Shown piece by piece: positions 45,510-58,840 of a stretch of 64,000 bases of DNA. Made by a program: the position numbers and the translations under genes. Location of the stretch: NCBI GenBank assembly GCA_035283685.1, contig DATETJ010000009.1, forward strand, positions 458,925-522,924. Direction: 5' to 3'. The DNA is from Candidatus Bathyarchaeia archaeon. GTDB lineage: Archaea > Thermoproteota > Bathyarchaeia > Bathyarchaeales > Bathyarchaeaceae. How positions within the stretch are numbered: position 1 is the stretch's first letter; every line of letters starts with the position of its first letter. Below the pieces are notes generated by a model. It worked only from the letters and a program-made list of their open reading frames with translations. It was not told the DNA's origin and did not search any database.

Positions 45510-47633
45510 TCATTGAAGCCCCTTTGCAAGATCTTGCATTTCCGCAATCGTGTAATGATATATTCCATAACTCTTACATCTTTCTATTGCCTTACGGCTG
45601 AAGGCTCTTGCAACAAAGAAACCAAAAACGTCTTTTCCCCGCAACCTTTTCTCTTCTTCAACAACTGTCCTAAATTCATCAACCAGACCAATCCCACACG
45701 GTCGTTTGTGATTCTTGGCTGTGAAGATAGCGATGGCTTCTTCCTTTTCAGATTTAAGATGCAATACCAAGTCTTTTTCCCTAGTGCCTTCCCTATCTCT
45801 GAGTCGTGGGAAAACCGTTTCGAATTGTTTCAAAGGAGCTATTTTCTTCCAAAGACCTTTGACAGCTGCGGAATACAGATCCTGTTCCAACGACAAACCT
45901 TTGATGTAGCTTGTTTTGCCTTGTATTCTCTGCGCCGCGATCGGAGATGCTAGGTCTGTTAGAAGCGGCTTGAACATCGCTGTGCCTTCACATAAGAGCT
46001 CGACCAGCTCCGGATATTCCATATATTTCAGTAGCCCAGGAACTCTCTCTTCGTACACTCGAATCAACCGGTAAGCAACATCAGCGATTTTTATAGATTC
46101 ACTTTGGGAAAGAGACAAGTAATGTTTTAGCTCGGAAACAATAGATGACGTAGTTTCTACGACGTTTGACATTAATTCGTCATTAAGTAATGATTTACAT
46201 TGATTATTGATGGTCTTCAGCTTCTTCTCTATTTCCTTAAGATCGGATTTCTTGATGGAGCCGGGGTCTTCAGACAAGCTGAGTAAGACTTCTACCAGCT
46301 CCTTGTGGATCTCAGCCCCAGCAAGGTCTTCGAAACGATACTTTGCGGCTATACCTTTCAGTCTGAGAATGTCCTGACGACGATGGGCCTTGCTTAACGG
46401 TATGTAGTCACAGATTTCAGCAAGGAATGAATAGTAGCGGCCTATTTCAGCCTCTTTATGTCTCAGCAAATTCTTGGAAATCTTGTGCAGAATCTGAGAC
46501 TTGATTCTAAAATCGGATGTCTTGAGAGACATGTAGTACAACATAGTATCATCTAATTCCCCTGTATAACCCTCGTCAATGTGGAGTTTTCTAAGCCTTC
46601 TTTGGGAGGATCTCCCATTGTCGTTTCGCCTCAAAAGAGATGATATGCTCTTGATCTCTTCAAGTTCGTCTTTCATGTTGAATTCTATCGCAAGTTTTTC
46701 TGCTGTGTCAGCATGCCTCAAAGCCGATGCGTCATCGTTTAACAGGGCATAGTGGCACATCAAATGCTTATGATATTCAAAAAGATCCCATGCATAAGCA
46801 ATACAGCCGAATACGTCCCTCTTTCGTAATGCATATGCAAAAAAATCGTAGAGTGCACATCGATAACTGCTTGGTTCGACCTCAGCCAGAACACGGAAAT
46901 AATCTGCCAAAGCGCGACTTGCCTCCGCTTCGAGGTTGATTTTCCTCAGCATCAAACTTTCTCTAAGGAGATATTCTCTAGCCTTTTGAGAGGAATCAGA
47001 ATTGAGAGCCTTGTATCTCAAACTCAAAGCTTCATAAAATTCTGAGCCCCTTTCGCTACCTTTAGATTTTAGACATCGCGACAATTTAAGTAATTTCGCA
47101 ATCGCTTTCCCTATCCTGCCCCTATGAATATCTTCATAAGCTCTCAGCTTCAGCAAAGAGATGTCCAGAATCTCCTTTTCAACCTTGCTTTTCCCTTTCT
47201 TCCGCTGCCGTGACCAGAACCGCCCAAGCGCTGAGAAATGCTCGCTTTGGCTACATTGATTGCATTTCGGATATTCTCCAAAAAGGACTTGGTGAAAATC
47301 CTGACACACAGCTGATATCGTATTCGCCGCGGTCATCGTCTGCCACTCAATCTCAGAGTGATTTCTCGATTTCTTGATTTTCCTGACGACTTTGGCGTCA
47401 AGGTTAAATGATGGAAACAGTAGTTTGAAAGAGGCATAAAAAAAGGCTGTCGGAAGGTAACACCCAACATGCCCGTGAAGTAGCATAGATCCTAACACGT
47501 CAACGTCGTCGTCCGTAGGAGGCTTCGCTTGAAGATTAACACGCGCATTGTGATCATCAATTATGCGATTCAGGACCTTATGAGACAAGATTTCGAACTC
47601 GAGGGTACCTACCATTGCTGTCAGTTCTTGCAT
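45510..47633 (-). CDS. 707-aa helical protein with a possible nuclease-like C-terminal domain
   Basis: I do not recognise a full-length family. Residues ~130-560 look like helical TPR-type repeats (ALSLRYKALNSDSSQKAREYLLRESLML..., ADTAEKLAIEFNMKDELEEI). An N-terminal CNQC pair lies near 120. The last ~125 residues resemble an Mrr-like restriction-endonuclease fold: Glu in GLSLEQDLY, Asp in EKDLVLHL, then EEAIAIFTAKNH, LVDEFRTVVEE and FGFFVARAFSRKAIERCKSYGIYHYT. In that fold an E/QxK motif is expected where this has TAK, so the site may be altered or inactive. It is divergent from the helicase-Argonaute operon and could be its effector or regulator. Confidence 0.6.
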   Translation of the reverse strand: MQELTAMVGTLEFEILSHKVLNRIIDDHNARVNLQAKPPTDDDVDVLGSMLLHGHVGCYLPTAFFYASFKLLFPSFNLDAKVVRKIKKSRNHSEIEWQTMTAANTISAVCQDFHQVLFGEYPKCNQCSQSEHFSALGRFWSRQRKKGKSKVEKEILDISLLKLRAYEDIHRGRIGKAIAKLLKLSRCLKSKGSERGSEFYEALSLRYKALNSDSSQKAREYLLRESLMLRKINLEAEASRALADYFRVLAEVEPSSYRCALYDFFAYALRKRDVFGCIAYAWDLFEYHKHLMCHYALLNDDASALRHADTAEKLAIEFNMKDELEEIKSISSLLRRNDNGRSSQRRLRKLHIDEGYTGELDDTMLYYMSLKTSDFRIKSQILHKISKNLLRHKEAEIGRYYSFLAEICDYIPLSKAHRRQDILRLKGIAAKYRFEDLAGAEIHKELVEVLLSLSEDPGSIKKSDLKEIEKKLKTINNQCKSLLNDELMSNVVETTSSIVSELKHYLSLSQSESIKIADVAYRLIRVYEERVPGLLKYMEYPELVELLCEGTAMFKPLLTDLASPIAAQRIQGKTSYIKGLSLEQDLYSAAVKGLWKKIAPLKQFETVFPRLRDREGTREKDLVLHLKSEKEEAIAIFTAKNHKRPCGIGLVDEFRTVVEEEKRLRGKDVFGFFVARAFSRKAIERCKSYGIYHYTIAEMQDLAKGLQ

Positions 47634-47960
47634 AATTCGACCTTCTCTATCAGTCGGATTTGTAAAACGCTACTTGAATAGTTTTTCTACAGTTGCATCT
47701 AAATATCTGAAGCATCCACTGGCAACGAGACTCACCTTGTGCTCTTCAAGGACTTGGGTTATCTATTGCAGCTGATGTGAGATGGAGGCTAAGACTCACG
47801 ACCATGGCACGACCGAAAGGCAAAACTCAGCCCAGAGGTGATTTTTCAATCAAGCGACTGCGAAAATCATAAACTCAATTCGCTTGCACGAAACGAGCGC
47901 AACTGAAATAAGCACAAATCAAGGATACCGTTTGTAATCTAGCGCAGAGGGAAAACTGGC
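47634..47960. other. Divergent intergenic region of the Argonaute locus
   Basis: About 330 bases between the 707-aa gene and helicase 1. It must hold promoters for both sides. A tiny frame ATGGCACGACCG... at 47802-47870 would give a 22-aa basic peptide (MARPKGKTQPRGDFSIKRLR...), possibly a gene remnant; I do not call it. GAGGGAAAA at 47946-47954 serves as ribosome-binding site for helicase 1. Confidence 0.35.
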
Positions 47961-49673
47961 TTGGGCAATAATCAAAATCTTAACCTTAGCCTACAGTCGG
48001 TTCTTGAACGGTATCAGAAAGTGGAGCATCGGGAGTATCAAGTAGCCTGTATAAAGGGTGCGGTTGAAAGCATCAACAACGGCGCAGATGTAGTAATTGA
48101 TCTACCGACAGGGGCAGGTAAAACACTGGTGTATGCTCCTATCGTTGCTGACGTATCAGATAATGGGAGGAGTGCACTTGTTTTAACAGCAACGAAACAA
48201 GCACAGAGGCGTGTGAATTCTGAGATAAGACAGTTTCAGAGAAAATCGCAGCCAGTTCTCATCTATGGGATTCAGGAGTATGACTGCCCCGTTTTAGATT
48301 CAAAAGCTCAGAATTGGTGCTGTGGAGAGCTTAAGGAGGAACTCTGCAAACCAAAGGGTGTAGACTGCGCCGTAATCCAATCCGAAAAAAATTATAAAAC
48401 CTCCAATCTGGTTGTCACGAATTTCTCAAAGTTTCTTTTGGCGTCAGCAAATAGGAAGTACGACATTATAGTTTTGGACGATTCCCACAGCTTTGAAAAT
48501 ACGAAGGAACAAGCATATCAGATCATCATACACTATGCGCCTGTTAGAATTTTCTATGAGGAAGGGATACAACAGCCATCACTCTCCGTCATGGTTCAGG
48601 GTTTCCTGAACCTTTTTAGCGAAATCTTCGAACGATGCGTGAATCCAGAAGACAAGGAAGGAATCATAACTATAGAGTACATAAAGCGTTTAGCAGAACT
48701 TGTCAACAGCAAGAATGAAGAACAACTTAAGCAAGAGATCATGAGGCTTTCAGAACCCAAGCGTTCAATGTGTTGGAGCATCTACTATTTCATACGAAGA
48801 TGTAAGGAATCAAGCAAATACCAGTTCTATGTCAGAAAGGATTTTTATGATCCTCAAGATTGGGATTCGAGCGAACTAATCTCAAGAAGGGACGACATAG
48901 TTGAGTATATTATTCGTAACCGTTTCAATGACAGCAGAGTGATCTTTGTTACGGCGACACCCGGCGATGTGAATCTGCACGCTAATTCCTGCACTCTGAG
49001 AGACTACGATAGCATTAGACTTGAAATTGCACCTCCAAAGGACTCTCATTATCCAGAGATCGATAACTGGTTTCGAAAACTCGCAATTATAATAGTCGAC
49101 AATATAGGCGACACTAGGCAACAGAGTTACTTTGAAAAAGCCATTGGTCTGACGACGGACATACTCGAGAACCGAAAAGAGAGGGCACTCGTGCTCTTTA
49201 AGAACTACAGGGACCAGAGATCGGCCTATAATATCCTCTCGAAGAAATTTCCTTCGGACAAGCTTTTTTTCATAGACGTTTCACTGCAGGATAGTGATGT
49301 AATTGAAGAGATAGCTAGCAAGAAGAAAATATCATTGGCTTCTGCTTCTTCGACCTTGTGGGAGGGAATCAACATCAAGAAGTTAGGTCTGGCTATCATA
49401 ATCTCACCTCCATTCATTCGTCCGCACGTAGGCCATGCACTGAACTATCCATACTTCGAACGGAGAATGTTGATTCGGCTTCAACAAGGCATAGGCAGAA
49501 TCATCAGAAGCCCTGCAGACTTTGGAGTCGCGGTATTAACAGACAACCGCTTCAAAAGATACATTAATAGACGCATGTTCAATCAGAAATTGCGTGAGCG
49601 AGTTGAGTTTCTGAAATCGGACAAAGTTGTCTCTAGAATCAACGATTTGTTCTCTCAATGGGGGGCATCGTAA
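47961..49673 (+). CDS. XPD/DinG-like superfamily 2 helicase (helicase 1 of the Argonaute operon)
   Basis: The 570-aa protein has Walker A PTGAGKT (49-55), motif II VLDDSHSFEN with DDSH (173-176) in place of DEAH, VTATPGD (motif III), motif V SASSTLWEGINI and motif VI LQQGIGRIIRSPADFG...LTDNR. Motifs V and VI are typical of the XPD/Rad3/DinG branch. Cysteines C109, C120, C121, C129 and C136 lie between motifs Ia and II, where XPD has its FeS domain, so a cluster is plausible. TTG start after GAGGGAAAA. Its stop (TAA) abuts the Argonaute ATG, so the two are coupled. Confidence 0.85.
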   Translation: MGNNQNLNLSLQSVLERYQKVEHREYQVACIKGAVESINNGADVVIDLPTGAGKTLVYAPIVADVSDNGRSALVLTATKQAQRRVNSEIRQFQRKSQPVLIYGIQEYDCPVLDSKAQNWCCGELKEELCKPKGVDCAVIQSEKNYKTSNLVVTNFSKFLLASANRKYDIIVLDDSHSFENTKEQAYQIIIHYAPVRIFYEEGIQQPSLSVMVQGFLNLFSEIFERCVNPEDKEGIITIEYIKRLAELVNSKNEEQLKQEIMRLSEPKRSMCWSIYYFIRRCKESSKYQFYVRKDFYDPQDWDSSELISRRDDIVEYIIRNRFNDSRVIFVTATPGDVNLHANSCTLRDYDSIRLEIAPPKDSHYPEIDNWFRKLAIIIVDNIGDTRQQSYFEKAIGLTTDILENRKERALVLFKNYRDQRSAYNILSKKFPSDKLFFIDVSLQDSDVIEEIASKKKISLASASSTLWEGINIKKLGLAIIISPPFIRPHVGHALNYPYFERRMLIRLQQGIGRIIRSPADFGVAVLTDNRFKRYINRRMFNQKLRERVEFLKSDKVVSRINDLFSQWGAS

Positions 49674-51956
49674 ATGTATCATGCAAATCTGTTTCCGTTG
49701 ACAAGGCACGAGCCTCTTCCAGTATGTTGGTACACGCCCAGCATTGACCCCAAACCAATTAACAAGCCACAGCAGTATCAGATCCTCGGTATTGTTGCGA
49801 AGCAAATCCTGTATCGGGAAAGAAAGCCTTCTGTCTCAAGCGGACAGCAAATTATGTCGTTGTCTCCTATCTCCAAACTTACTGGACACGTTGCCGAGAT
49901 TCCTGAAGTTGGTAGGTTTAACGTCACGCTAGTCGACGCTGGCAGTTCTTCTGTGGGATTGGATCAGTTCGATCAATACCGACTTTTGGTGAATAGACTC
50001 GCAGACATAGCTCTCACAATGCTTTCCTCTGAATATTACAAGTTTCACCCGGAAGCTCCTTACATACTCCGCGACGAACCCTACTTTGATGCAGATCTTA
50101 TAGAGAAGACCGGTATTATAGATTCGAAAAAGTACTATCGAGGGCTTCATGAATTCAATAATTTGCCTGTCTTTGTACTCAACCGTGAAACTGAACTGAG
50201 ATCTCATAAGAACTTGCTCAACGAAATCAAGAGTCTAATGAAGTATTACGAATTGACAAGAAAGACCAATGCGGATTTCTACAATCCACCGAAGGAATTC
50301 GTCGATTACGTGAATTTCCTGCTGAGGGGTAAAGTTGCCGAGGTCATTAGTTATCCAGGGCCAAGTGTTAAGGAAATCAAGGAGGTAACCTGGCAGCACC
50401 GTGCATGCGACATAACACCAGGTTCTACAGCGTCTCATGTCGAATACTTGCGCGATACCTATGGCGTCCAAGAACTTGATCCAAAGCAGCCCTTAGTTGT
50501 ATACGAAATCGGACTGGACACGAAGCGAATACAGTACCATGTTCCAGAAGTGTTGTCAATTGGACACACATTCAGTGATCTGGAGAAGCGAATACCTCGT
50601 TGGCAGAGAACGCAGGTTTGGGGAGTGATCCATCCCGACTGCAAGAACCAGCTGCAAAAGATTTATGGGGTTCTGCTTGAAGTGGATCGAATGCTTCGAA
50701 CATACCTTCCTGAGATCTATCCAAAACTCGTGGAGATCTCAACCGAAGCGATGGATGTGACCTCACTTGTTTCCAAGCCAGCTGAGTTGAAACTCAAGTT
50801 TGGAAATAAGGATATGTTGATAAAGACACCGTATGACGTAAACTTCTATCATAGTTATACAGACAAGAAGCTCTCATTCGCAAGACCAATCGAAAACATT
50901 CGTGCACTAGTCTGCGGACCTGATAGGTCGCAGAAGATCAAGGTCTTCTTGACCGCGCTTGCAAAGGAATTCAAACTCAGGAACAATTCTGAGTTGAGTT
51001 TTGACTATGGGACACTGGATTTTGACAGAACTGATTACTCTGGTTATGACGCAGTGATCACTATAGGAAGCGACACAGGCGAAGGAGATGAAAAATACGA
51101 CAGATGCAAGGAGATACTCCAGAATTCATTAGGAATAATCCATCAACATGTTACTGAAGAACATGCGAATGAAGACTCTGTAATGGCGTTGGTTATGGAG
51201 ATTAACCTTAAGTTCGGAGGTGACCCTTGGCTACTTCCTGACCAAGAAAACATTCCATGCACGGTGGGAATCCATAGTTACTCCAATCCATACTCTGGAA
51301 AACAAGCTATATTCGCTTTAGCACTTGACGGCAGAGGCGCGTTGCTGAAGCAGTTCGACCCAGTACAACCAACGGACTTCGAAAACCTAGCTCAAGAACT
51401 ACTGGGCTTAAATGAAGACTACGGTCGGATTCTCTACGTTCTTTCATATGATCGATTCAATATTTTTGAGAAGCTAGAAGGCATTTTAGGAAGCACGGGC
51501 AAGAAAGTTGAATACTGCATCGCAGAGATAGACGATCAAGATTACGTTCGATTCTTTGAAACATGGCTGCCTAGAAAAGCGCCTAGGTTTGGCAAGATTG
51601 TTTCTGTACGTGAAAGACCACCAATCGAAGCCTATGAAAGCGCTCCCCAAGGCGTTGCATTGAAGTCTGATGATGACACCTTTTTCCTGCTTACAGGTAA
51701 GACAATAGAGAAAGATGCAACCAAGCGTGGGTGCCCGATGCCAATCAGACTTCTAATCAAGAAAAGGAAAGGCAAGACATGGGAAAGTTCCGATATTGTG
51801 AATCACGTATTCGCTTTGTCTATGATGGGACGAGCAAGCGGACACATGACTAGATTACCATCTCCGCTCTATTACCTTCAGTCTTATGCTTACTACTGGA
51901 ACAGATTTGGTGTCCCAAAAGATGAAAAAATCAGGCAACGAATCTTCTTCATATAA
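49674..51956 (+). CDS. Long prokaryotic Argonaute with altered catalytic site
   Basis: The 760-aa protein has the full Argonaute layout. PAZ: RGLHEFNNLPVFVLNR (~156), then SHVEYLRDTYG...PLVVYE...VPEVLSI (~254-296). MID (~405-520) keeps the guide 5'-phosphate set Y475, K479, Q491 and K513 (YDRCK; HQHV; NLKFGGDPW). PIWI (~525-760): CTVGIHSY has His534 where the first catalytic Asp stands; YDRFNIFE gives Asp593; the fourth position falls at N710/H711, and the C-terminus RIFFI is hydrophobic as in other Argonautes. Slicer activity is therefore probably lost while guide binding should remain. It lies between two XPD-like helicases in one operon, recalling DdmE, which acts with a helicase against plasmids. 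Confidence 0.9.
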   Translation: MYHANLFPLTRHEPLPVCWYTPSIDPKPINKPQQYQILGIVAKQILYRERKPSVSSGQQIMSLSPISKLTGHVAEIPEVGRFNVTLVDAGSSSVGLDQFDQYRLLVNRLADIALTMLSSEYYKFHPEAPYILRDEPYFDADLIEKTGIIDSKKYYRGLHEFNNLPVFVLNRETELRSHKNLLNEIKSLMKYYELTRKTNADFYNPPKEFVDYVNFLLRGKVAEVISYPGPSVKEIKEVTWQHRACDITPGSTASHVEYLRDTYGVQELDPKQPLVVYEIGLDTKRIQYHVPEVLSIGHTFSDLEKRIPRWQRTQVWGVIHPDCKNQLQKIYGVLLEVDRMLRTYLPEIYPKLVEISTEAMDVTSLVSKPAELKLKFGNKDMLIKTPYDVNFYHSYTDKKLSFARPIENIRALVCGPDRSQKIKVFLTALAKEFKLRNNSELSFDYGTLDFDRTDYSGYDAVITIGSDTGEGDEKYDRCKEILQNSLGIIHQHVTEEHANEDSVMALVMEINLKFGGDPWLLPDQENIPCTVGIHSYSNPYSGKQAIFALALDGRGALLKQFDPVQPTDFENLAQELLGLNEDYGRILYVLSYDRFNIFEKLEGILGSTGKKVEYCIAEIDDQDYVRFFETWLPRKAPRFGKIVSVRERPPIEAYESAPQGVALKSDDDTFFLLTGKTIEKDATKRGCPMPIRLLIKKRKGKTWESSDIVNHVFALSMMGRASGHMTRLPSPLYYLQSYAYYWNRFGVPKDEKIRQRIFFI

Positions 51957-53319
51957 ACTATCGACTATTCGACTTCCTCCATTTAGAAGTTGGTTACAAG
52001 CACTTCAGGTTTATTCGAAAAAATGTCAGAAGCATGGCTCTTTTTTGCACTCTCAAAAGGAGCTTCTTAAACAAATTCATTACGCAATTACCCGCCCTGA
52101 ATTCAAAGTTGTTACTTTCACAGCACCTCCAGCATCTGGAAAGACACATGTAATCGCCCTCTGTGCATCTTATTTCCATGATCATGACATATCAACGTGT
52201 ATTGTAACTCCTAACAACGAACTCAGATTCGAATTTCAGAAAGAGCTAGCCGAAGTCAATTGCAGATCAGAAGAGTCTCCGCCAGTAATCAATGTTGGCG
52301 CCTATGTCAAGAAGAGGCATGACTATGAATTTGCGTTTATTGATGAAGCTCACAACCTACGATCCGCGATCGAGTTGGACAGAGACATCGTCAAGTCCAT
52401 TCACTTGGAAAAAGGAGAACCGCTTTACGAGGCTATCGTATCCTCTCTGGAAAAAGGTGAAGGTTATACCACAAAAGAACTAAGTGCTGAAAGTGCCCAT
52501 GATATACTCGAGGGGATGATTGAAAGCAAGTATAAAAGTAGTGTTACGCAAATTCTGAAAACCTTATCTCAATGGCGTGGTTTCTGCATTGTTTGTGATA
52601 CTACTTGTGACCTGAAGTTTCTGCTTGCTGACCCTGACAGAAGAGGACTTGTACCCAAGGGAAAATTATTTCTTTTTTCTGCGACTCTTTTGGATCCGAA
52701 GGAACTTCAGTTCTACTGTAATATCCCAAATGAAATGGTTCAAAATATAGGCGACAGCCAGAACGACTTCGTACCGAAAAAGAATGTTGCATATCGTTAC
52801 ATCTCATGCAATTCGAATGGTGAGAAGAAGAATCTAGTAGTATTCTTGCTGAAAAATACAAGACTGCGAACCTTGATTCTTGTTAACAGCAATTCGATGT
52901 GTCTCAAATGGGACAAAGCACTCTCACGGAAACTGGGAAACAGAGTCATGACGATAGGGTCAGGTCTTCATTACACAGAGAGGCTTAATGTCTATAGGAA
53001 ATTCGTGTGTCACCCAAATCCCATTCTGCTGACTTCTTCCAACGTTTACTGGGAAGGGATATCGATTAAGGATCTGAGACTCCTGATAATTCCTAACCCT
53101 CCGTTTCCCCAGCCGAGTCTTCTGGAGATAGCTGAAGGAAAGCACACTCAGTATAGCAAGATAGCCAAGAGGCGGCTCATTCAAGGTATGGGCAGGGTGG
53201 GGAGATCACCTCAAGAGAATGGAATATGCCTTCTCTTATTTCGTTCACGAAATCTGGCGAGTCATATCAAGGCTACTACAAAATATAAAGCGATACATCT
53301 GATCACCGATTTGGGCTGA
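51922..53319 (+). CDS. XPD/DinG-like superfamily 2 helicase (helicase 2 of the Argonaute operon)
   Basis: The 465-aa protein has Walker A APPASGKT (68-75), DEAH box FIDEAHNLRS (141-144), motif III LFSATLLDP, motif V SSNVYWEGISI and motif VI LIQGMGRVGRSPQENG. It is distinct from helicase 1: it has a normal DEAH box and no cysteine group for an FeS cluster. I use ATG 51922, overlapping the Argonaute stop by 35 nt; a GTG at 51910 and an ATG at 51886 are alternatives. The first element copy of the three-copy family begins 23 nt after its stop. Confidence 0.85.
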   Translation: MKKSGNESSSYKLSTIRLPPFRSWLQALQVYSKKCQKHGSFLHSQKELLKQIHYAITRPEFKVVTFTAPPASGKTHVIALCASYFHDHDISTCIVTPNNELRFEFQKELAEVNCRSEESPPVINVGAYVKKRHDYEFAFIDEAHNLRSAIELDRDIVKSIHLEKGEPLYEAIVSSLEKGEGYTTKELSAESAHDILEGMIESKYKSSVTQILKTLSQWRGFCIVCDTTCDLKFLLADPDRRGLVPKGKLFLFSATLLDPKELQFYCNIPNEMVQNIGDSQNDFVPKKNVAYRYISCNSNGEKKNLVVFLLKNTRLRTLILVNSNSMCLKWDKALSRKLGNRVMTIGSGLHYTERLNVYRKFVCHPNPILLTSSNVYWEGISIKDLRLLIIPNPPFPQPSLLEIAEGKHTQYSKIAKRRLIQGMGRVGRSPQENGICLLLFRSRNLASHIKATTKYKAIHLITDLG

Positions 53320-53341: not shown

Positions 53342-53647
53342 GTAGAAGTCAACAGACACGCAGCGCAGACTACTTCTAAACAAAAAACCACTCGGTATTA
53401 TTACTTGTTCTAAGCGGAAGTTAATAACATCTGAAACAGAAACCCCCACAAACAGCCTGCGCCTGCGTGTCCAACTGCAACTGTCCAAGCTACTGCCCGC
53501 AGCCACAATATTCGGGGCGTTGATGTCACTAGGAACATACTGATGACGACATCCATACAGCCACAGCCGCAAAACTAGCTCCAACATGGCAGAAGACGAC
53601 CTTAAGGGTCAGTTGCCTTCTTCTTTCACACAGCCCTTCCCGCAAAC
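53342..53647 (+). repeat. Three-copy intergenic element, copy 1
   Basis: This begins GTAGAAGTCAACAGACACG and contains the core block TTCTAAGCGGAAGTTAATAA. It ends with a hairpin of GAAG/CTTC outside GACC/GGGTC (about 53591-53619) and a pyrimidine tract. It is 306 bp long and lies 23 nt after helicase 2 on the same strand. Compared with copies 2 and 3 the 5' hairpin arm differs (AGAAGT against AGTAGT) but still pairs with downstream ACTTCT. It shares CAACTGTCCAAGC and GGGCGTTGATGTCACT with copy 3. Confidence 0.75.
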
Positions 53648-54233: not shown

Positions 54234-54455
54234 CACCTTAGGTTATGCCGCAAGATTCTATTTTCGGAAAACCGAAATACATTTCGGAAAACAATACCAG
54301 CCTAGCAAAACCTTCAACCTCAAGAACTCAAAGAGAACCTGCGGTTTGCCGAGGACCTTTTAACCAAAGCCAAGTCAATCGTGATGCGGTAGCCCGCCAA
54401 CAAAGAAACCCTATCACAACGTATTTATGTATGCATTTGGTATCATTTGTATACG

Positions 54456-54785
54456 GTGAACCCTTTGACACTCAAGCCACTGGCAGTAAGGATACCTGAA
54501 GAGATTGAGAAAGAAATTCTAGAAGCAGTTGACCGCATGAAACTCGACAAAGCCACAGTGGTTAGAACACTCCTCGAAATGGGAATCGAGGAATGGAGAA
54601 AACAAACTGCTCTAGAACTGTTACGAAACGGAAAAGTAACGTTTGCCAAAGCCGCAGAAATGGCCAAACTCTCACTCTGGGAACTCGCTGACCTAGTGAA
54701 ACAACGCAACGTAGAATGGGTCAGGTACACACCTGAAGAGATCGAAAAAGAACTAAAAGAAGCCACTGTGGCGGACTCCGAGTGA
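54456..54785 (+). CDS. UPF0175 family antitoxin
   Basis: The ~109-aa protein has an N-terminal Arc-like region (AVRIPEEIEKEILEAVDRMKLDKATVVRTLLEMG) and the UPF0175 helix-turn-helix pattern ALELLRNGKVTFAKAAEMAKLSLWELADLVKQRNV. In archaea this family is paired with PIN toxins. A TATA-like TATTTATG at 54422-54429 puts transcription start near 54450, so GTG 54456 is preferred over TTG 54447. It overlaps the toxin gene by 4 nt (GTGA). Confidence 0.85.
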   Translation: MNPLTLKPLAVRIPEEIEKEILEAVDRMKLDKATVVRTLLEMGIEEWRKQTALELLRNGKVTFAKAAEMAKLSLWELADLVKQRNVEWVRYTPEEIEKELKEATVADSE

Positions 54786-55336
54786 AGCCACTCGTCTTCA
54801 ACGCCACACCATTAATCTACATAACCAAAGTCGGACTAGCAAAGATCCTCGAACAATTAAAAGATGAAAAACTAACTTCACCACACGTCAAAAGAGAAGT
54901 CGTAGACAAAGGAAAGCGCAAAGGTATTCCAGACGCCATCATTCTGGACAAAATGTTCACTGACCACGTTTTCAAAGTTACCGAAGTCAAGAACAAGAGA
55001 CTCCTCGCAAGTCTACTGGAGACAAAAGGGCTCCACATAACCGATGCAGAAGTCCTAGTCATTGCACGAGAACAAAACGGCATAGCAGTTATCGACGATG
55101 AGGTAGCAAGAAAAACCGCACGGATATTCGCAATATCGTATGTAGGCACACCTTGTATCCTGATGAGAGCTGTCTGTCACGGGCTGATTACAAAAGAAAG
55201 AGCAAAACAAGCCATAAACGAAATGACCCTCCAAGGCTGGAGATGCAGCCTAGAAAGCTACTCAAAAATAATGGAAGCCCTAGAAAGATGCGACAAGCGG
55301 CAAGGAAGAACACGAATCGAAAAACCAAAGAAATAA
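54782..55336 (+). CDS. PIN-domain toxin (DUF3368-like)
   Basis: The 184-aa protein shows the PIN layout: VFNATPLIYITKVG at the N-terminus, HITDAEVLVIAREQNG with acidic residues in the middle, and AVIDDEVARKTAR for the C-terminal acidic pair. In this subfamily the first acidic position is often Asn, as here. It is predicted to cut RNA and is neutralised by the UPF0175 protein it overlaps. The C-terminal ~30 residues are basic. Confidence 0.85.
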   Translation: MKPLVFNATPLIYITKVGLAKILEQLKDEKLTSPHVKREVVDKGKRKGIPDAIILDKMFTDHVFKVTEVKNKRLLASLLETKGLHITDAEVLVIAREQNGIAVIDDEVARKTARIFAISYVGTPCILMRAVCHGLITKERAKQAINEMTLQGWRCSLESYSKIMEALERCDKRQGRTRIEKPKK

Positions 55337-55805: not shown

Positions 55806-56250
55806 TAGTCAACGTACACGCCGCACAGACAACTACTTCTGAACCTAAAGCGCCTCGGTATTATTACTCATTCTAAGCGGAAGTTAATAACATCTGAAAC
55901 AAAACCCGCCCACCCAGAGCAACATCAGATGTTAGTGTTTCTGAGACAACTTCAACACTAACACGCCCCAAAGGTCAACAGCCCCAAAAACTACTTCCAA
56001 CATAGTAAGAAGGCGCTAAGCGATTGTCTCCTTCTTATTTTGAAATCTCTCTTCCCACAAAACCGGCAACATACGCAAACGTCACGATTAACAACATTGA
56101 AAGTACCATTAAAACACCAGCAAACAGAGCCTAAGACACCATTCAGAACCCGCAACAAACCCTAAACCACAACCTGAAAAACCCGACTTTCACCGCAAGA
56201 AAAATTTTCAGCACTCATACTAACCATCTACACCACACCCAACAGCCTCA
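55800..56250 (+). repeat. Three-copy intergenic element, copy 2 (about 450 bp)
   Basis: This starts at the stop codon of the cupin gene (AAGTAGTAGTCAACGTACACG) and carries TTCTAAGCGGAAGTTAATAA. It has a hairpin AGAAGG...CCTTCT at about 56009-56034, then further blocks shared with copy 3: CAACATACGCAAAC, ACACCAT-CAGAA, and AAAATTTT--GCAC-CATACTAACC near 56201-56225. Same orientation as the gene it follows. No conserved reading frame links the copies. Confidence 0.75.
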
Positions 56251-56427: not shown

Positions 56428-57925
<1,498 letters not shown>

Positions 57926-58210
57926 TTGTTGTTTGGATGATTTTTCGGCACTTTGTTTGGGAGTACTGTTCTGTTTTCCCATAACTTTGCCGCATTTGGC
58001 TAGACTGGAATTGGGGAAAGATTTGTTCAAGCCCTTTTTTGACCCGAGAGAGTCTGTGCTTTTTTCGGGTCTACATTTTTTGTGTCCGTATCTGGAGGTC
58101 AACCGTTATGGTCATCCTTAGGCGTTACGCGCCGTTTTGTCGTGGTTGACGCCGCCTTTTTTAGTTACGGACGGCTTTGTAGCCAATTTATTCTTGAGGC
58201 GGTTTCGTTT
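57926..58210 (-). other. 16S rRNA leader region
   Basis: About 285 bases between the putative TATA box at 58211 and the mature 16S 5' end. No gene is supported here. It should contain the pre-rRNA leader and processing signals. A short complement (GTTTGG near 57931 and CCAAAC near 56343) across the 16S gene exists but is too short to call a processing stem. Confidence 0.4.
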
Positions 58211-58221: not shown

Positions 58222-58840
58222 TGCTGTGTGGTGATCTGGGTGAGGGTTAGTATGGGTGCAGAAAAATTTTTTCAAGGTGGAAGTTGGGCTTTTCTGTGTG
58301 TTTTTGTGGGTTTGTTTTAGTTTCTGTATGGTGTTTCTGGCGCTGTTTACTTTTGGTTTGTGGTGCGCTTCAACATAGTTTAGCGTGAAGTTTAATGTTG
58401 GCATGCGTGGTGTTTGCGTATGTTGACGGGACTCTGCGGGAAAAGAAATTTCAAAAGAAGAAGGAAACAATCGCTTAGCGCCTTCTTCTACAATTGGTGC
58501 GGTTGGGTTTAGCAGGCTGAAAGCTGTGTGGACATCGTCATAGGAGTGTTCCCGAGTGACATCAACGCCCGGTATGGTTTTGTTGGCTTGGACAGTTGCA
58601 GGCTGAACATGGAAGCGCAGACTGTTTGTGGTCGTTGAAAAGGGGCTGTGGCTGTTTTGAAGTTGTTGTTGACGTTGAAGGGTTTACCACAACAACTACT
58701 TGAATGTTGGACGTGATTATGTGAGAGCGGTTTCTGTTTCAGATGTTATTAAATTCCGCTTAGAACGAGTAATAACACCGAAGGGGGGTTCTGCTTTAGA
58801 AGTAGTTGTCTGCGCCGCGTGTACGTTGACTACTACTTCT
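58222..58840 (-). repeat. Three-copy intergenic element, copy 3 (about 620 bp)
   Basis: Read on the minus strand it begins AAGTAGTAGTCAACGTACACG, 50 nt after the methyltransferase stop. It contains TTCTAAGCGGAATTTAATAAC, CAACTGTCCAAGCC, GGGCGTTGATGTCACT, the hairpin AGAAGGCGCTAAGCG...CCTTCT (58464-58491 region), CAACATACGCAAAC and GCACCCATACTAACC. It is the longest copy and ends just before the 16S promoter. With copy 2 it forms a long imperfect inverted repeat around the 16S gene. Confidence 0.75.

Follow-up and report, generated by a model that had tools for sequence, protein, structure and literature searches.

A helicase-Argonaute-helicase operon in an uncultured archaeon

What might an Argonaute do when its gene is packed into one operon between those of two helicases? 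The question is raised by the 64,000-nt window analysed here, the whole stretch of DNA taken from a bathyarchaeal genome of 2.28 Mb (98% complete, 12 contigs); the window also carries a 16S rRNA gene (56428-57926, minus strand) that fits the archaeal model. The four open reading frames described in an earlier note are present, and three of them form the tight plus-strand operon that it reported (H1, Argonaute or Ago, and H2; together, the trio), with a stop-to-start junction and a 35-nt overlap. The features are as follows.

45510-47633, minus strand: gene of a 707-aa protein, from the list of open reading frames; divergent from the trio and outside the conserved cassette
47961-49673, plus strand: H1, putative iron-sulphur XPD/DinG-type SF2 helicase, 570 aa, TTG start
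49674-51956, plus strand: Argonaute, long N-PAZ-MID-PIWI, 760 aa, predicted to be catalytically dead
51922-53319, plus strand: H2, compact SF2 helicase with a predicted XPD/DinG/CasDinG fold, 465 aa from its second ATG

The Ago ATG abuts the H1 stop codon, and with the second ATG (51922) taken as the H2 start, Ago and H2 overlap by 35 nt; the H2 reading frame opens at 51886 and encodes 477 aa when counted from the first ATG (51886-53319, plus strand). At two of the other loci described below (G086 and SubAcS15, contig L011), the H2 genes start at the position aligned with 51922, and the overlap with Ago is also 35 nt.

Two further elements lie downstream. A UPF0175/DUF3368 pair (54447-55336), which adjoins the cassette, resembles a PIN-type toxin-antitoxin module. 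In addition, the genome contains at least 41 matches to a dispersed repeat of 80-90 bp, mostly at 81-100% identity, and three copies of the repeat fall inside the 5.5 kb immediately downstream of H2 (53360-53450, plus strand; 55832-55910, plus strand; 58729-58818, minus strand); it matches no Rfam family at the gathering threshold, and its RNA fold shows nothing unusual (z = +0.87).

Conservation of the trio

Of the 257 genomes searched in the archaeal class to which the window belongs, 5 have Ago, the window's own included; identities to the window copy are 53-57% in two of the others and 36% in the other two. A scan of GTDB contigs adds a sixth trio locus, in the 'Thaumarchaeota' MAG SubAcS15-15. 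All six loci have H1, Ago and H2 in identical order and orientation, down to ~30% identity; outside the window (G085, G086, G099, G188 and SubAcS15), H1 and Ago either abut or share no more than 4 nt, and the start of H2 lies inside Ago or up to 6 nt beyond its end. Moreover, when the 257 genomes are searched with an H2 profile, full-length H2 turns up in exactly the five genomes that have Ago and in no others, a coincidence whose chance, ignoring genome relatedness, is 1/C(257,5) = 1e-10. Because the gene order is kept in six of six loci and H2 and Ago occupy the same five of 257 genomes, the arrangement is far beyond chance. The possibility that no other genome would have the same neighbours is thereby set aside for the trio, which has five further loci; of the four genes that had been expected to co-occur, H1, Ago and H2 do so (6/6 loci) and the 707-aa gene does not.

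The H2 profile has a single further match, in G141 (L079 7043-7558): 172 aa from the C-terminal part of an H1-like helicase, standing alone and possibly left over from a related system. At G086 (L006 6493-6580), H1 homology runs upstream of the first ATG/GTG/TTG, and the gene either has a start codon of a rarer type or is damaged. Other Thermoproteota Argonautes were considered as similar systems and rejected, as no relatives of H1 or H2 were found alongside them at six loci, two of which lie on short contigs.

An Argonaute predicted to bind guides and to have lost cleavage

The PADLOC pAgo models match Ago (6.6e-22), while its sole Pfam match is a weak one to classical Piwi (PF02171, 2.3e-4), and none of the pPIWI_RE Pfam models matches at E<=0.1. 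A PDB search with the single sequence returns nothing; a profile retrieves eukaryotic PIWI proteins as its best matches (1.6e-6), with the PAZ region matched weakly. An AlphaFold model of moderate confidence (pLDDT 74, alignment of 7 sequences) is nearest, over its full length, to silkworm Siwi and Asgard HrAgo1 (TM ~0.6), a likeness that would indicate a fold neighbourhood rather than phylogeny, because eukaryotic PIWI and AGO proteins dominate the PDB.

In particular, K479, Q491 and K513 are invariant in all seven Ago relatives and have a spacing similar to that of the guide-phosphate residues of HrAgo1 (F512/K516/N528/K555; PMC11217426), so that a K-Q-K pocket for the guide 5′ phosphate is predicted to be kept. 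All six trio Argonautes have H, N or Y in place of the first catalytic Asp and have lost the C-terminal H/D position, and these proteins are predicted to be catalytically dead; at the third catalytic position the alignment is ambiguous. The long pAgos of the distant relative G578 and of three other genomes of the phylum (G442, G451 and G393) retain GxD, RDG and the C-terminal H/D. By its architecture (long N-PAZ-MID-PIWI, 760 aa, full-length structural match) and the loss of the DEDX tetrad, the two features on which this assignment is based, Ago is a candidate member of the long-B pAgos, its nearest structures being eukaryotic PIWI proteins and HrAgo1.

Two distinct helicases, separate from the host XPD

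Pfam DEAD/ResIII and Helicase_C_2 domains are detected in the helicases. H1 matches Helicase_C_2 (2.6e-17), its best PADLOC profile is typeIV_DinG (1.9e-33), and its profile matches both XPD and DinG (archaeal XPD, 3e-25). Four cysteines (C109/C121/C129/C136) are invariant, the G578 helicase included, which is consistent with an iron-sulphur cluster. Motif II of H1 reads DDSH in all six trio loci, not DEAH, and its ATPase activity could therefore be altered; the G578 helicase has DESH. H2 matches Helicase_C_2 as well (3.6e-10) and has intact motifs (Walker A GKT, DEAH and QGxGRxxR) without the iron-sulphur cysteines found in H1, and its model (pLDDT 73) is nearest to XPD, DinG, Hna and CasDinG. 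In the C-terminal helicase domain, the two are weakly similar to each other. H1 (570 aa) and H2 (477 aa) match helicase models, Pfam and PADLOC ones included, with no credible nuclease domain in either, and across the six loci no nuclease is recognised in the conserved core of H1, Ago and H2.

The earlier note had asked whether the helicases cluster with unlinked housekeeping XPD/DinG genes. Each host has one ordinary XPD, encoded elsewhere in the genome; the seven host XPDs form their own clade (support 100/99), separate from H1 and from H2, whose own clade has a support of 100/100. A housekeeping identity for either helicase is accordingly rejected. H1 and the G578 helicase group together with weak support (60/59).

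Inheritance as a unit

In each of the Ago, H1 and H2 trees, G085 and G188 form a pair, and the window falls with SubAcS15, G086 and G099; the arrangement of these latter four is slightly different in the Ago tree, where its support is modest. Pairwise identities and trees of the three genes agree on the main split. G085, G086 and G099 are members of a single genus, and in the XPD tree they cluster together (support 100/99). Since the trio gene trees are broadly concordant with each other and discordant with the host XPD tree, the three genes appear to have been transferred horizontally together, a behaviour expected of defence modules. A plasmid or viral home for the cassette was considered and rejected: Ago has no match in the plasmid or IMG/VR searches, H1 has none in the plasmid search, and H2 has one weak partial helicase match.

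Variable neighbours and the 707-aa protein

The genes that flank the trio differ from site to site, and an all-against-all comparison of the flanks of the six loci finds no protein besides the trio common to any two. G085 has a Shedu SduA gene (L008 1029-2333; 434 aa; SduA_C 5e-27) on the same strand after H2; G188 has a Schlafen AlbA_2 gene; SubAcS15 has Vsr together with a C5-methylase, the latter named from reading of the sequence; G099 has large restriction-type helicases, also named from reading of the sequence; and the genes listed near the G086 trio are not recognisable nucleases. Judged by these predicted functions, the surroundings of the trio are of the defence type.

At the window locus, the 707-aa protein had been put forward as a fourth component, the effector, with a nuclease-like C-terminus. 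The divergent minus-strand reading frame is indeed there; its nuclease-like character comes down to the C-terminal 148 residues, which reach E = 0.055 against Mrr_cat, short of the family cut-off, and the family searches, Pfam and PADLOC among them, give the protein no match. Elsewhere in the class, its C-terminus aligns, marginally, with two small proteins only (G166 and G171), and its relatives are too few for an alignment. The two small proteins have a D...QVK pattern in which the window protein has T for Q; a degenerate Mrr-like C-terminal domain is thus possible, and, because of this replacement, nuclease activity is doubtful. No counterpart is found beside any of the five other trio loci, so the protein is unsupported as a conserved part. 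Being also near absent from the class, it was rejected as a component of the cassette, and the proposed effector role is not supported either.

A distant relative with one helicase

G578 (L015 5719-10550) encodes an Ago with GLD, RDG and HAD, followed by one XPD/DinG helicase of the iron-sulphur type and by an unknown protein of 283 aa, and type I restriction genes lie near the Ago-helicase pair. It is possibly a second Ago-helicase system, in which the Ago looks catalytic. An order of events in which one helicase came first and the second was added later stays a conjecture, because the H1-G578 grouping is weak and the tree leaves the branching of the G578 Ago among other long pAgos unresolved. 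This catalytic-looking pair with one helicase is a natural comparison for the trio.

Relation to known systems

Helicases in pAgo operons have been reported in general (PMC6299218), and guides paired with DinG-family helicases have two precedents, type IV-A CRISPR with CasDinG (PMC10450177) and the pPIWI-RE triad (PMC3702460). The cassette reads as closest in logic to these two. It shares with the pPIWI-RE/DinG/REase triad (Burroughs 2013, PMC3702460) a PIWI-family protein, a tight three-gene operon, an iron-sulphur DinG-clade helicase (H1, by its four invariant Cys and Helicase_C_2) and a patchy, horizontally spread distribution. However, the triad is described as bacterial with a strict REase-DinG-PIWI order (PMC3702460), whereas the trio is archaeal, ordered helicase-Ago-helicase, and has two helicases, a PAZ-containing long Ago and no REase; indeed, no gene besides the trio is common to the six loci. 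The Ago also lacks any pPIWI-RE Pfam match, being classical Piwi by Pfam and nearest eukaryotic PIWI and HrAgo1 by profile and fold. Type IV-A has Csf1/Csf2/Csf3/Csf5 genes beside DinG; the comparison of the trio loci with one another shows no shared protein besides the trio. Like type IV-A, the cassette would use a guide for targeting and a DinG/XPD-family helicase as its motor, without a recognised nuclease; typeIV_DinG is the best PADLOC profile of H1, and CasDinG is among the structures matched by the H2 model. Its targeting module is an Argonaute, and it has two helicases, not one. Because the conserved core has no recognisable nuclease, the cassette is probably more like type IV-A than like the pPIWI-RE triad.

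The parallel with DdmDE, drawn in the earlier note, holds in part: both systems encode a catalytically dead Argonaute with an SF2 helicase (the first Asp and the C-terminal H/D position of the tetrad are lost in six of six trio Agos), but DdmD is a single helicase-nuclease protein, whereas the trio has two helicases, both XPD/DinG-like, with a nuclease domain detected in neither. Asgard HrAgo1 (PMC11217426), among the closest solved structures, is likewise an archaeal full-length Ago with a helicase gene alongside; unlike the trio Ago, predicted to be dead, it is catalytically active, and its neighbours are an RNase III gene and a helicase described as being of the HEDxD/H type. APAP, the haloarchaeal pAgo-PLD system (PMC11442185), is an archaeal Ago operon with a helicase gene near some copies, but it pairs a catalytic Ago with a PLD-family partner. 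A literature search, whose reach excluded most subscription papers and bioRxiv preprints, did not find the helicase-Ago-helicase cassette, and within that literature the claim that no described system has this gene set is borne out for the trio.

Proposed mechanism and alternatives

The reading that we prefer, at a probability of roughly 0.5, is that the three genes H1-Ago-H2 form a guided defence cassette that is carried by uncultured archaea, moves horizontally and acts by helicase-driven interference. It builds on the gene order, co-occurrence and co-inheritance of the trio, the lost catalytic residues, the intact helicase motifs, the defence-type neighbours and a conserved core in which no nuclease is recognised, all of it sequence- and model-based evidence from six loci. 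From these we infer the guide binding, target type, recruitment, unwinding and defence phenotype of the following scheme. Ago would bind a 5′-phosphorylated small guide, find complementary nucleic acid of an invader and, unable to cut, hold the site. Two motors would then be recruited and would unwind the flanking duplex, namely the iron-sulphur H1, expected to move 5′-3′ on DNA and RNA/DNA hybrids, and H2, the smaller of the two, which may block the element's transcription or replication, or expose it to cellular nucleases.

The main rival keeps the unwinding by dead Ago and helicases and assigns cutting to a separate, site-variable nuclease in trans, as in a DdmDE-like system. Shedu SduA at G085, Vsr at L011, the restriction-type proteins at G099 and the possible Mrr-like domain in the window would be candidates; however, no flanking protein is common to two loci, defence islands gather such genes anyway, and the listed G086 neighbours include no recognisable nuclease, which leaves this explanation rather unlikely. 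Two lesser ones are improbable. The helicases may serve guide production or loading by splitting duplex or R-loop precursors, with the dead Ago silencing by binding alone: next to HrAgo1, whose fold matches closely, lie genes for a helicase and an RNase III that have been suggested to generate guides (PMC11217426), and DinG-like helicases act on RNA/DNA hybrids (PMC3702460), but the conserved core has no nuclease for guide trimming, and two different dedicated helicases seem beyond the needs of loading. Least probable is a role outside defence, in which Ago and two XPD-like helicases help repair or replication by processing R-loops, as suggested for Pseudomonas stutzeri PIWI-RE (PMC10991935). 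XPD/DinG helicases do act in repair, and deletion of PsPIWI-RE affects cell division (PMC10991935); against this stand the highly patchy occurrence (5/257), the joint transfer of the three genes, the XPD that each host keeps of its own and the defence-type neighbours.

Within the preferred reading of a guided defence cassette, a stronger version is offered tentatively: an inactive, PIWI-like archaeal Ago and two dedicated helicases may confer immunity alone, as a nuclease-free system that would be to Argonautes what type IV-A is to CRISPR, and that may have arisen from a still catalytic Ago with a single helicase such as that of G578. If so, Argonautes would, like CRISPR, include a branch of guided immunity that relies on helicases only and does not cut, and a PIWI/HrAgo1-like Argonaute would have a non-slicing, partner-recruiting role in archaea. 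The cassette is small, and it offers a direct test of motor recruitment by an inactive Argonaute.
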